DNA from: Nitrospirota bacterium | GTDB taxonomy: Bacteria; Nitrospirota; Thermodesulfovibrionia; Thermodesulfovibrionales; Dissulfurispiraceae | Assembly (NCBI GenBank): GCA_040752355.1 | Contig: JBFMHE010000008.1 | Span: 1-64,000 of the forward strand | Length of the DNA: 64,000 nt | Direction: 5' to 3' | Shown here: positions 1,273-6,593 of the stretch, piece after piece | How positions within the stretch are numbered: position 1 is the stretch's first letter | Layout: every line of letters begins with the position of its first letter | Notes under the pieces: generated by a model | Seen by the model: the letters and a program-made list of their open reading frames with translations, nothing else | Told to the model about the DNA's origin: nothing | Databases searched by the model: none | Translations under genes and position numbers: made by a program

Positions 1273-1345
1273 ATTAGGTAAATAGTTTGTAAACTCTTTA
1301 GAAATGCCCGACTTCGTCCGGGCTACTTTTCAGTGGAGGGTTTGT

Positions 1346-2710
1346 ATGGTAATGAAGAGCAGAGTCGCCTTATTGGCCGCCCTCATGACCGCAGCACTGT
1401 TTCTTTTCAGTGTCATGGGAATAGCAGCCGATGCGCCGCAGAAGCCGAAGATCGCGCCGCCCTGCAAGCAGTGTCATAAGCCTGATGAGAACATCCTGCG
1501 CGGCGCTTTCGGCGGGGTATCGAACAAGACCGGCACCGTTCAGATCAATATCGGGCCTGCCGCCTGGGTCGTGACCTACGACGATGACACGAAGCTCATC
1601 GGCGCGGAGAAGTGGAGCCAGATTCCGAAAGAGAAAGAGATCGCCATCGCTATCAGAGAGCAGGACGGCGGCCTCTATGCGCAGAGCGTTTCGGTCAAGC
1701 CTCCCGCAAAGGTGGCCCCCGAGAAGCTGATATCGACCGAAGAGATAGCGAAGCTCGTCGCCATGGGCCCCGAAAAGGGGAATTTCACGCTCGTCGACTC
1801 GCGGCCGGCGCCGCGGTACATCGAGGGACATATCCCCGGCTCGATCAATATATACGATGCCGAGTTCGAGAAGAACACGGACAAGCTTCCGAAGGAGAAA
1901 GATCAGCTGCTCGTCTTCTATTGCGCCGGCCCTACGTGAAGACTGAGCACGTCCTCTGCAGTTAAGGCAGAGAAAATGGGTTATACCAGGGTGAAAGTAT
2001 ACCTCGACGGCATGCCTGCCTGGAAAAAGGCGGGCAATGCAGTGCTCTCCTCCACGAAGAACCTCAAAGAGATGATGGACAAGGATATCCCCAATGTCCT
2101 TATCGATGTCAGGCCGACCGCTGAAGCGAAGAAGGGTCACATCCAGGGCGCTGTTTCGATCCCCGCAAGCGAGCTCGCAAAAGCCAAGGACCGCTTCCCC
2201 GGCAGCAAGTCGGCCCCGATCATTCTCTACGGCACTGATACGAAGGCTGCGGTAGAGGCGTTCAAGACCGTGCGCGGCTGGGGCTATTCCAATACCTCCG
2301 CGCTCGAAGGCGGTCTCGAAGCGTGGAAGGGTATCGGCGGCCTCGTGGTCAGCGGCGACGTGGGCACCACGGTCGTTTATGTGCCGAAGCCGAGACCCGG
2401 CGCGATCTCGATCGACGACTTCAAGGTCGTTGCCGAGACCCTGCCCGCGGGCAAGCTCATCCTCGATGTCCGGGATGAGGACGAAGCGATGCAGGGCATG
2501 CTCAAGGGAGCGCTGAATATTCCCGGCGGCGATATCAAGGACAGGCTGAAGGATATCCCCAGGGATAAGGAGATCATCACCCACTGCGTCACCGGCGTCA
2601 GGGCCGAGATGGCCTACAATATCCTGAAGGACGCCGGCTACAAGGTGAAGTTCCTCGATGCCGACATCAAGATCGACAAAGACGGCAAGTACACGATAAC
2701 CAAAGAGTAG
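1346..2710 (+). CDS. Secreted three-domain rhodanese-like protein, probable selenoprotein (in-frame UGA, codon 198)
   Basis: Read through a TGA at 1937-1939, the frame gives one 454-residue protein. It has a signal peptide (residues 1-28), a CKQCH motif at 40-44 that could bind one c-type haem, then three rhodanese modules. The first (about 128-225) holds C193 and, five residues on, the UGA at 198 in an FYC-x4-U setting where relatives commonly carry a second cysteine. The second (about 235-335) has no cysteine. The third (about 350-454) has a full active-site loop with C414 (HCVTGVR). The frame is unchanged on both sides of the UGA, homology is continuous across it, and a SECIS-like hairpin follows. 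ATG at 1346 is chosen over an upstream in-frame start because of GGAGGG at 1335. A nonsense mutation (TGC to TGA) is the main alternative. A sulfur-transfer role in the periplasm is inferred. Confidence 0.75.
1940..1975 (+). promoter_or_regulatory. SECIS-like stem-loop just after the in-frame UGA
   Basis: CTCTGC (1954-1959) pairs perfectly with GCAGAG (1967-1972) around a seven-base loop, AGTTAAG. The loop begins 20 bases after the UGA and has G as its second base. Bacterial SECIS elements are small apical stem-loops at this sort of distance with a G at the first or second loop position, so the geometry fits. Actual SelB binding is inferred. Confidence 0.65.
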
Positions 2711-2729
2711 TCCGGTTCGCCCCGTTAGA

Positions 2730-2766
2730 AACTCCCTGCAGCGTGCTGCTGCAGGGAGTTTTTTTC
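2730..2766 (+). terminator. Rho-independent terminator after the rhodanese gene
   Basis: ACTCCCTGCAG pairs perfectly with CTGCAGGGAGT across a seven-base loop and is followed by a run of T. It lies 20 bases after the stop codon. Confidence 0.92.
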
Positions 2767-2794
2767 GGAGAGCAGGCATCCTGAAAGGCGGCTG

Positions 2795-3244
2795 TCACTT
2801 CCTCTTGTATAACCCTACGATTTGTCCCTGCGCAATGACATGCCCCTGCATCGCCTTCTCCAGGTCGGCCTTTTTCGCCTTCTTGTCCAGATGAAGCGTC
2901 GTATCGAGCGCGTAGAGTTTGAAAAAGTAGCGGTGTGTGCCCGAGGGCGGGCAGGGGCCGCCGTAGTCGTGCCTCTTGAAGTCGTTGATCCCCTGCTCGG
3001 CCCCTTTCGGAAGCGCGTGCTCCCCGATCGTCCTCGTGGCCGGATCGATGTTCCACACCACCCAGTGCACCCAGGTGCCCATCGGCGCATCGGGGTCGTC
3101 GACGATCAGGGCCAGGGAGCGGGCAGCGGGCGGCGCCTTGTCTATGACGAGCGGGGGGTTGATATCGTCGCCGTCGCAGGTATACTTTTCAGGGATGGGA
3201 CCGTTGTCCTCGAATACGGGACTGGTAATTCTCATAGTACCCAT
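2795..3244 (-). CDS. YbhB/YbcL family PEBP-like protein
   Basis: The 149-residue protein matches the bacterial phosphatidylethanolamine-binding (Raf-kinase-inhibitor-like) family in length and motifs: the DDPDAP segment near residue 50, HWVVWNI near 60, and the GGPCPPSGTHRYFF segment near 95-108 that forms the ligand pocket. There is no signal peptide. A GGAGGG box precedes the start. The bacterial family has no firmly known ligand. The gene is monocistronic and separate from the convergent rhodanese gene. Confidence 0.9.
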   Translation of the reverse strand: MGTMRITSPVFEDNGPIPEKYTCDGDDINPPLVIDKAPPAARSLALIVDDPDAPMGTWVHWVVWNIDPATRTIGEHALPKGAEQGINDFKRHDYGGPCPPSGTHRYFFKLYALDTTLHLDKKAKKADLEKAMQGHVIAQGQIVGLYKRK

Positions 3245-3407: not shown

Positions 3408-6400
3408 TTACTGACATCCGATAATCTTCTCCTGATGGCCAATCCGGATCGTTATCTCAGAAAAGAAGGTGACCGAATCGGCCTTGGTCCATAGCCCGAC
3501 AAATCCCTCGACCGGCTGTTCAGCCGTGTGCTCTACTACCACTCTGCCGTCGAGACAGCCCCTTATACGATTTCCGCTTACTTCAACCTTGAGCTCATAC
3601 CAGGTGCCGGACCGTATCGTCTCCTGCGCGCCGACGCGCTTAATCCTCTTATTGTTGACATACTCGAAGAGTATCACGTTATCTTCGAGCGCATTGATCC
3701 GGAGCACGAAGTAGTTGCTCGCGTTGCGCACGCCGAAAGCGATACCCCCCGCTCTGTCGATATGTCCGCCGATCGGTTTTACGCGAACGCTGACCGACCC
3801 ATCGGCCATCTCGCTGTCTTTTGCGATGGCTAGAGGAAAATAGTAGTAGGCCTCTATAGTATCGAGGAACTCCTGGAGCGACGGGCCGACAAATTTCCCC
3901 ACGATTCCCGCCACTCCCGACGAAAGAGTGAAACCAGACTTTGAGCCGTCCTGGACGCAACAGCTCTGATCATCTTCCCGGTCTCTTTTCCAGTAGCCGC
4001 CGTAGGTGTAAAAGTTGCTCAACTGATCGGCCCGTCCTTTCGAGAGGAGGTCATAGTCGCCCTTGAAGAATGCGGCGATCGCTCTCTCTACGTCGCCCTG
4101 GCTCGAGAGCGCCATATCCAGAAGCCGGGAACAGGCAAGGAGCCTTCCCAACCGGTCGAGTCTGTCTTCAGTCGAAGCGCGGTCATAGCCGGTGAGGTAC
4201 GCTTCCAGAAGATCGCCTTTCGCGGACACCTGGAACCCCAATCGCTGTAAGACACCGCCGAGGAATGAGACCCTCAACGATTTTCCGTAATAGTTTCCTG
4301 CACCTCCGGCGAACTGGAGGGCGATATAGTTCTGCGTGCTTCTATTTCCGCAGAACGCATCAAGGGTTGCAAAGTGGTAGCCGAACTTCGCGCTGAGATT
4401 CAGGTAGTCTCCGGAGAGAACCGCATAACTGGTGCCTCCCGGTATCTCCCCGAATTCGGAAATCGCGCTCGAGGCAAAGAGGGTCATCATCTTCCGCATA
4501 GAGAGATTGATCGTTCCTTCCCAGGTTATGCCGGGATAGGTGAAGCCCCTCCACAATGCCCTCATAGGGACCGACTCGATATGCTCGGGGGTAAGGGCAT
4601 CGCAGGTGGTCAGCCCCGGTCTGAGCCCGCCGCCCAGATCCACCAGGCGGAGCGTCAGGGGGATAGGTGCGGTCAGCTCAACCGATTGCGTCCCCTCCGC
4701 TTCATCGGTGAGGCCGAACATGCTCTGCATCGCACGTTCGTGGGTAAACCGCACGATATCGTGCAGTGTTTTGCACCCTTCCGGAGAGAAGGTCGACGCC
4801 TCCGGATCGATCAGGGCAAGAGAGGCGATCCGGTCAAGGATACGTCTTACCCTCCGGTGGACAGGGGTATCGAAGATGAATCTTCTGGCAGGGTGTGCAG
4901 CGCGGGTGAGCGCATCGACCACTCCCTTGTATACCCTCCCGGTGGACGCCGAAAGCGTAATCGTCTCTCCGTCAGGGAGCAGGTCGGTAGCGTTCTTCGT
5001 ATCCACGAGGGCCGGTATGCCGAACTCTCGGGCAACCGAGGAGAGGTGGCTGGTGATGCTGCCGATATCGGTGATGATTCCGCTGAGCCTGCCGGCGAGG
5101 TTCGCATAGTGGGGCGACGCGGTCTTTGCGACGAGGATGGCGTTATCCGGAACCGCCGCCATCCCCTGCCCCTCCTTTACCATGAAGACAGTGCCGACCG
5201 CTATTCCTTCAGAGGCGGCTTGTCCTCCCGAAAGGAGGAGCGGATGGTCGGGAAATTCCCGTGCGACGGGCTCCCGATCCTGCTGAGGCTCCGTAATCAT
5301 CAGGGGACGGGACTGCAGAATGACGATAGTGCCCCTGCTGTCCAGAGCCCACTCGATATCCTGGGGCGTTCCGAAGTAGTTTTCGAGCGTGAGGCTGCAG
5401 CGAGCGAGGTCGGCGATAACGGCGTCATTTATCGAGGGAAGCTGCTGCTCGGGTTCCGGCACCTCTTCGAGGAGGGTACCCCCGGCAGCGGCGCGTACAC
5501 TGCGCTGCTCCTTCCTGCTTATTTCCCTCGCTACTATTTCCCCGTTATCTCGTGCAACGAGGAATGAGTCGGACGATGCGCTCCCCTCCACAAGGCGCTC
5601 GCCCAGACCCCACAGGGACGTTATTCTGATGACCTTCCTGTTTTCAGGGTCAATCCCTCCCGTATAGATAACGCCGCTGGCCCGTGCATCGACCATGACC
5701 GTTCCCGCAACGCACATGGGAGTCTCCCGGTCGTCCAGCCCGTAATGCATCCGGTAGGAAATGGCCCTGCTGGAATACTTGCCCGCAACAACGGTCTTAT
5801 AGGCTTCGATAAGGTGTGATCGTGTAACGTTGAGCACCGAGGTGTACTGTCCGGCAAAGGTGGCCTCCGAATCCTCGCCTATGGCGCTGCTCCTCATGGC
5901 TATGGGGATGCCGCTGCCTGCCCTCTCCTCGAGAGCGGCATAGGCGCTCATCAATTCCCGATGAAGATCCTGCGGCAGCTCGGCCTTGAGAATCATCATC
6001 CGGATGGTCTTACTCATCTCATCCATATCCTCGGGGGAATCAGGGTTGATCTTCCCGAGCTGCTGTTCGATCGGTTTCCTGAGGCGGTTCTCTCCTATGA
6101 ACCGCTCGAAGGCATAGGCGGTAACGGCAAAGCCATGCGGTGCCGGCACGCCGAGATTATTCCTGATAATCGCGAGATTCCCTGCCTTCGCGCCGACCAT
6201 GCTCTTCAGTTCAGGGGTAATGTCCTCAAAAGGGAGCACGAGGGCCTGGGAGAGTAAGGGGTAGCGCGGACTGAGATCATCCGAGAGGGCATTATCTATT
6301 TCAGCAAGCGTAGCAGCGAGCCGGGCACAGGAGGTGCCCGAGAGGCTTTCGAGCGAATGGATGGCGCCGTAGACCGCTTCCAGCAGCTCCTCGTATGATG

Positions 6401-6593
6401 TCCGTATCGAGGTCGGGATGAAAGGCTTTCCGCTGTAGTATCTCTGCTCGAGATCGGCAATGATCTTGAGCGCCGTGTGGTTGTGGTTAAGGTAGCTCTT
6501 GAAGGAGCGGTATTTCCGCACGTGGGTCCCCTGCAGGTTGATCAGCGGCATGCAGACCTGTCTCCGTGTGAAGATGCTGCGCAGTCCTGTCAT
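3408..6593 (-). CDS. PEP synthase/PPDK-like protein with C-terminal lectin-like domain
   Basis: This is a 1,061-residue fusion. Residues about 125-440 are the PPDK N-terminal ATP-grasp domain (KAGNL near 136, AMRSSAIGEDS near 233, QDIEWA and LQSRPL near 430). Residues about 455-560 are the swivelling phosphohistidine domain; its ITSH-LSSVAREFGIPA segment carries the expected catalytic His. The C-terminal TIM-barrel PEP/pyruvate domain is not recognisable. Instead there is a long region of unknown family and, from about 920 to 1050, a beta-rich laminin-G/concanavalin-like segment (SNYFVLRINALEDN, GTWYELKVEVSG). It probably moves phosphate from ATP to a His, but the final acceptor is unknown. 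A GGAAGGGG box precedes the start. Confidence 0.75.
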   Translation of the reverse strand: MTGLRSIFTRRQVCMPLINLQGTHVRKYRSFKSYLNHNHTALKIIADLEQRYYSGKPFIPTSIRTSYEELLEAVYGAIHSLESLSGTSCARLAATLAEIDNALSDDLSPRYPLLSQALVLPFEDITPELKSMVGAKAGNLAIIRNNLGVPAPHGFAVTAYAFERFIGENRLRKPIEQQLGKINPDSPEDMDEMSKTIRMMILKAELPQDLHRELMSAYAALEERAGSGIPIAMRSSAIGEDSEATFAGQYTSVLNVTRSHLIEAYKTVVAGKYSSRAISYRMHYGLDDRETPMCVAGTVMVDARASGVIYTGGIDPENRKVIRITSLWGLGERLVEGSASSDSFLVARDNGEIVAREISRKEQRSVRAAAGGTLLEEVPEPEQQLPSINDAVIADLARCSLTLENYFGTPQDIEWALDSRGTIVILQSRPLMITEPQQDREPVAREFPDHPLLLSGGQAASEGIAVGTVFMVKEGQGMAAVPDNAILVAKTASPHYANLAGRLSGIITDIGSITSHLSSVAREFGIPALVDTKNATDLLPDGETITLSASTGRVYKGVVDALTRAAHPARRFIFDTPVHRRVRRILDRIASLALIDPEASTFSPEGCKTLHDIVRFTHERAMQSMFGLTDEAEGTQSVELTAPIPLTLRLVDLGGGLRPGLTTCDALTPEHIESVPMRALWRGFTYPGITWEGTINLSMRKMMTLFASSAISEFGEIPGGTSYAVLSGDYLNLSAKFGYHFATLDAFCGNRSTQNYIALQFAGGAGNYYGKSLRVSFLGGVLQRLGFQVSAKGDLLEAYLTGYDRASTEDRLDRLGRLLACSRLLDMALSSQGDVERAIAAFFKGDYDLLSKGRADQLSNFYTYGGYWKRDREDDQSCCVQDGSKSGFTLSSGVAGIVGKFVGPSLQEFLDTIEAYYYFPLAIAKDSEMADGSVSVRVKPIGGHIDRAGGIAFGVRNASNYFVLRINALEDNVILFEYVNNKRIKRVGAQETIRSGTWYELKVEVSGNRIRGCLDGRVVVEHTAEQPVEGFVGLWTKADSVTFFSEITIRIGHQEKIIGCQ

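Follow-up and report, generated by a model that had tools for sequence, protein, structure and literature searches.

Comparison with described systems

Selenocysteine (Sec) in a rhodanese is not new in kind, as five forms of rhodanese selenoprotein are catalogued in a 2026 review (PMC13188914), and the initial annotation of the locus described here was correct in stating that selenium-containing rhodanese-like proteins were already known. The locus lies in a 64,000-nucleotide stretch of a Nitrospirota genome (the window; contig JBFMHE010000008.1 of assembly GCA_040752355.1). The predicted protein has three rhodanese domains, a CxxCH motif and a candidate Sec at residue 198. Form 1 of the catalogue, attributed to Zhang and Gladyshev (2005) and taken here from its summary in PMC13188914, is a rhodanese-like selenoprotein (PF00581; WP_010941598.1) with a single Sec in a UxxS motif. 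The window protein carries U198-R-L-S201 and, compared by motif description only, the two may belong to the same family.

The TsoB model (NF045694, UxxxxU) resembles the window protein in its U/C-x4-U spacing within a rhodanese-type domain and gives a partial HMM match to residues 117-245, but scores 62.4 bits where the cut-off is 805. TsoB, similar to a rhodanese/DsbD fusion, carries two Sec as well as a DsbD-like part; the window protein has a single Sec and, besides the matched domain, a CxxCH domain and two additional rhodanese domains. The LYCAU rhodanese-related (seleno)protein (NF041203, CxU) also has Sec near the active Cys of a small rhodanese domain, although its Sec lies two residues after the Cys, compared with five in the window protein, and the match, at 67.5 bits, falls short of the cut-off of 115. 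BH2092 (PDB 3nhv/3o3w) shares a C-x-G-P-x-C active loop whose second Cys is aligned to Sec198, but it is a single-domain, Cys-only protein without a heme motif. The NADH-dependent persulfide reductase and CoA-disulfide reductase-rhodanese fusions (3nta, 3icr) combine a rhodanese with a redox module, and domain 3 of the window protein resembles theirs; these fusions use flavin/NADH, whereas the window protein, with its probable export signal, has a heme motif and Sec. Identity with ExtH (NF040901) of the selenite operon was not supported, as this model was absent among the window-protein matches up to E 0.1 and its sole match in the genome was elsewhere and below the cut-off.

No NCBIfam model covers the window protein at its cut-off, therefore standard annotation is likely to truncate the protein or split it in two. 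A heme-linked or Nitrospirota-linked selenium rhodanese was not found in the literature searched, and the heme-linked triple-rhodanese architecture, present across Nitrospirota, appears to be undescribed there.

The reading frame and its in-frame UGA

The frame at 1346-2710 on the plus strand (Table 1) contains a single in-frame stop in its translation, the TGA at 1937-1939, which falls at residue 198 in the domain 1 active loop FYC193-AGPT-U198. The initial annotation had claimed that this codon interrupts a continuous frame with rhodanese homology on both sides; both the frame and Pfam agree, with PF00581 matching three stretches of the protein (E 1.3e-49; 167 bits against a cut-off of 22.2). 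Cys193 and Cys414 are both conserved. From composition alone, a 255-codon open extension past the TGA would be expected by chance with P ~1e-4. Genome-wide reassignment of UGA was ruled out, as TGA closes 21 of the 60 long ORFs in the window. No Rfam family scored above its cut-off at the locus.

Table 1. Features of the selenorhodanese gene in the window.
Feature	Position	Strand	Basis or remark
Shine-Dalgarno-like GGAGGG	1335..1340	+	5 nt 5' of ATG 1346; read in sequence
CDS with UGA as Sec	1346..2710	+	454 aa; stop TAG 2708-2710
Probable cleavable signal peptide, residues 1 to ~27	1346..1426	+	judged by eye
CKQCH, probable site of heme c attachment (residues 40-44)	1463..1477	+	CX2-4CH in homologues
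Small beta-barrel (OB-like) domain 3' of CxxCH	1493..1699	+	AlphaFold model mc33819286e51 and Foldseek
Rhodanese domain 1, putative redox-active C-x4-U loop	1733..2050	+	Pfam, sequence and fold matches
Cys193, canonical rhodanese catalytic cysteine	1922..1924	+	conserved in 69/70 rows
UGA, predicted Sec198, residue six of active loop	1937..1939	+	UGA/Cys in homologues
Predicted bacterial SECIS hairpin with a 6-bp stem and a 7-nt loop whose second base is G	1954..1972	+	comparative
Rhodanese domain 2, degenerate, loop GTDTKA without Cys	2063..2344	+	Pfam and alignment
Rhodanese domain 3, canonical loop C414VTGVR	2408..2668	+	Pfam and alignment
Strong intrinsic terminator, T-run preceded by a stem of 12 bp or more	2729..2766	+	read in sequence; not listed by terminator scan

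An antisense open frame of 469 aa (1370-2779, minus strand) spans the whole gene, and like frames lie opposite several homologues. It is probably a shadow of codon bias.

The hairpin downstream of the UGA

A 6-bp hairpin with the loop AGTTAAG had been noticed at the right distance from the UGA. The UGA and the start of the apical loop are 21 nt apart in this hairpin (CTCTGC-AGTTAAG-GCAGAG, 1954-1959/1967-1972), and the second loop base is G. In the SECIS test, 36 nt downstream were read in each Sec row of the homologue alignment described below, with a 7-bp stem formed by columns 15-21 with 27-33 and a loop of 5; the stem of the window gene is 6 bp because its seventh pair is A-G. The stem columns were paired in 92.9% of cells, compared with 41-54% when the partner was slid by 1-3 columns. 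Doubly compensated cells numbered 40, against 2-10 in the slid controls and 12.9 after shuffling. Because coding constrains the hairpin region, a separate shuffle of synonymous codons within columns was also made. All three wobble-wobble pairs exceeded its expectation: 18-30 was paired in 57/57 rows (shuffle mean 50, maximum 55 of 300), 21-27 in 55 rows (mean 49, maximum 51) and 15-33 in 37 rows (mean 27, maximum 32). The apical loop had a G among its first two bases in 56 of the 57 rows. Judged by this comparison, in which pairing is conserved and compensated across the Sec rows and the loop G is kept, the hairpin at 1954-1972 behaves as a SECIS element.

In the rows with Cys at codon 198, pair 18-30 was intact in only 5/10; the hairpin is intact in L053, L025 and L080/L085 and lost in L060, L061 and L038. 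A gene-wide sliding MFE scan showed the SECIS stretch as prominent, yet other segments came near the same z. The scan is a weak discriminator because its shuffles break relatedness, and pair counts with the slide control are the better test.

UGA and cysteine codons among the homologues

Of 396 Nitrospirota genomes searched, 60 were found to encode the protein, and 70 distinct homologue rows were aligned. At the codon 198 column, 57 rows have TGA, 10 have TGC/TGT, 2 are gapped and 1 has TGG. The three rows with neither Sec nor Cys are all remote. The alternation of UGA with Cys that had been suggested as a check is present. The closest relative (72% identity) has Cys, and the next two have Sec. 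In the maximum-likelihood tree there are 7 label changes, 6 of which are forced by well-supported branches, and the Cys rows are nested among the Sec rows. Sec is therefore most simply read as ancestral, having been swapped for Cys several times. This repeated switching, with the SECIS intact or decayed in the Cys rows, provides a natural series for the study of Sec loss.

Purifying selection was equal 5' and 3' of the UGA, with a pair from genus g17 giving dN/dS of 0.065 before and 0.031 after it, and comparison of the window gene with four relatives gave pN/pS of 0.22-0.29. The UGA arrangement is retained in ~50 related bacterial genomes. A base-call error at 1939, or a pseudogene, was ruled out by the 57 TGA rows, which come from different genomes and loci, together with the continuing purifying selection. 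Outside Nitrospirota, a plasmid tblastn search returned ordinary rhodaneses only, and a scan of genome contigs found homologues in Nitrospirota only.

In one locus (L094, G203:C102, ~3540-3560), the loop reads YUGGYHU, with TGA at both the catalytic Cys and the loop end. The spacing is UxxxxU, as in TsoB, and the reading frame is apparently shifted further downstream.

Sec-decoding machinery

The host genome (3.57 Mb, 100% complete) contains a tRNA-Sec (68 bits, anticodon UCA), SelB (2e-106), SelA (9e-185) and two SelD genes on different contigs (L018, L019), so that every component of the machinery listed for checking by the initial annotation was found. In both SelD genes an in-frame TGA occupies the site where Sec is known in SelD (AGUAAK and AGUAGK), therefore Sec is used in at least two other genes of this organism.

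That all Cys forms arose through loss of the machinery was considered and rejected. Only G186 (99% complete) lacks both SelB and tRNA-Sec, and most of the other genomes with Cys forms keep the machinery. G362, G256 and G290 have both, G205 has no SelB match but keeps tRNA-Sec, and G334 has SelB with no tRNA-Sec match at the cut used. Three genomes with the UGA form (G215, G084 and G170) had no SelB match; as tRNA-Sec is present in all three, assembly gaps are the likely reason.

Taken with the hairpin and the homologues, it is almost certain that SelB and tRNA-Sec decode UGA198 as Sec under the direction of the hairpin at 1954-1972. The selenocysteine interpretation of the initial annotation is thus supported: the observations that it had named as contrary (a genome without Sec machinery, homologues with an unrelated residue and a base-call error) were each looked for, and none held.

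Protein architecture and the CxxCH motif

The AlphaFold model, built from eight sequences, had a pLDDT of 82.7, and by Foldseek and VIA-align its three rhodanese domains group with sulfurtransferases and persulfide reductases. By sequence, the closest match of domain 1 is BH2092 (3nhv), with Cys at the Sec198 position in its loop YCWGPACN. The earlier suggestion that FYC-x4-U places the codon where a redox-active cysteine is plausible fits this alignment, in which U198 falls on the second Cys of the C-x4-C loop.

Modelled on its own (pLDDT 79), the N-terminal domain forms a small beta barrel with best Foldseek matches to CusF/cold-shock OB folds (E ~5e-4), which reflect fold similarity only, and it matched no Pfam family at its cut-off. 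Model confidence was low for the CxxCH segment, which is expected when heme is absent. A C-x2-4-CH motif occurs in 62 of the 66 rows having the N-terminus. A few loci (L082, L084, L089 and L095) lack CxxCH, and genus g17 has CSLPGCH (C-x4-CH) at the place of C-x2-CH in others. Heme-attachment enzymes tolerate variable spacing provided that the C...CH is fixed. Variable spacing with a fixed C...CH therefore disfavours a CxxC thiol couple and fits covalent heme c. A second axial heme ligand was looked for in the N-terminal domain of the homologue alignment, and none was conserved. The protein combines probable export, with the signal peptide judged by eye, and CxxCH, as expected for a c-type cytochrome, and the motif is most likely a covalent heme c site and not a thiol motif. 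The initial annotation had regarded a three-domain periplasmic form with CxxCH as distinctive; the architecture is present, but it is not peculiar to this genome and belongs to a lineage-wide Nitrospirota family.

Gene neighbourhood

The window gene is monocistronic and lies between the genes of a Na/Ca exchanger and a protein of the PEBP family; neither sulfur nor cytochrome genes adjoin it. A conserved operon was rejected, being absent in the nearest relatives and seen only in genus g17 and distant paralogues. In g17, a membrane-anchored multiheme cytochrome (8 CxxCH, weak NapC/NrfH similarity) lies ~50 nt or less 3' of the gene, and small exported rhodaneses are divergently upstream. A distant Sec paralogue (L093:1-8273, G118:C38) is clustered with a second rhodanese, a YeeE/TsuA-type thiosulfate transporter and TusA, as well as a PhnD-like binding protein, a sensor kinase and an NtrC-like regulator. 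A YeeE-like gene also occurs near L060 and L056. These neighbourhoods, in relatives and paralogues, link the family with electron transfer and sulfur, though not directly for the window gene.

A PEBP gene (YbhB/Raf-inhibitor-like) adjoins the selenorhodanese, on either side, in the host genome and two of its nearest relatives (window 2795-3244; L053:5238-5775; L054:7434-8004). Further along the window (3408-6593, minus strand) is a PPDK_N and PEP-utilizer protein whose C-terminal region is unusual and weakly resembles 3-keto-disaccharide hydrolase/lectin domains.

Proposed function

Our preferred reading, to which we give somewhat less than even confidence, is that the protein is a periplasmic heme-coupled persulfide/polysulfide reductase using the Cys193/Sec198 pair. 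The selenorhodanese would be exported and heme c attached at the CxxCH. In domain 1, Cys193 and Sec198 could form a C-x4-U redox pair at opposite ends of the sulfur-cradle loop. Cys193 would accept sulfane sulfur, for which polysulfide, thiosulfate and a protein persulfide are candidate donors, and Sec198 would then attack the persulfide, releasing sulfide and leaving a Cys-Sec selenenylsulfide. Periplasmic or quinol-linked cytochromes could supply electrons through the heme to re-reduce it. The physiological substrate may be any of these three donors or a selenium compound. A role in loading or relaying sulfur is probable for domain 3 (CVTGVR), while domain 2 would be structural. The same chemistry could also run oxidatively. 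A broader and more tentative proposal is that the whole Nitrospirota family is a periplasmic heme c selenoenzyme, acting as a cytochrome-linked persulfide/polysulfide reductase or a sulfide oxidase of a hitherto undescribed type, with Sec at both loop ends in some relatives.

Another, unlikely but still serious possibility is that Sec is present in a protein that is not a reductase, serving instead as a periplasmic sulfur/selenium carrier or transferase that feeds YeeE/TusA-type importers, or handling selenite/tellurite. The cluster of the distant paralogue and the YeeE-like genes described above would suit this role, and in Geobacter ext clusters a rhodanese-like protein is coupled with cytochromes in selenite/tellurite reduction (PMC5877670). 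However, the window protein does not match ExtH, and the C-x4-U pair together with the heme motif is what a redox enzyme needs, while one Cys would suffice for a plain sulfurtransferase.

Less probable again, and in our view doubtful, is that Sec is present in a C-x4-U domain which belongs to the Cdc25/Acr2-like branch of the rhodanese fold and reduces thiol-disulfides, peroxides or oxyanions (arsenate/selenite-like). The loop C193-AGPTU-R199 has the C-x5-R spacing in many members, and one PDB sequence match was a Cdc25-type phosphatase (1t3k), but many members have Ala, Met, Ile, Thr, Gly or Pro in place of R199, which is therefore not a required oxyanion Arg, and the best sequence and fold matches remain the sulfurtransferases and persulfide reductases.

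If the reading given here is right, a widely conserved selenoprotein would be added to the anaerobic Nitrospirota, suggesting that selenium, heme electron transfer and periplasmic sulfur chemistry are directly linked at the biochemical level.

Alternative decoding of the UGA

Very improbable is that the UGA is read as cysteine, or that the gene is a pseudogene or a split gene with a true stop: selC*-type tRNA-Cys, some with UCA anticodons, are reported from Nitrospirae (PMC7609411) and the second tRNA-Sec-like genes of two relatives are tRNA-Cys, but these have GCA anticodons and none was detected in the host genome, the hairpin covaries, selection persists 3' of the UGA and TGA is a real stop elsewhere in the window.

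The two tRNA-Cys genes, in g17 genomes (L099:497-589 and L100:497-589, both minus strand), were matched by the tRNA-Sec model, and ARAGORN reads them as 93-nt tRNA-Cys of the selC* type.
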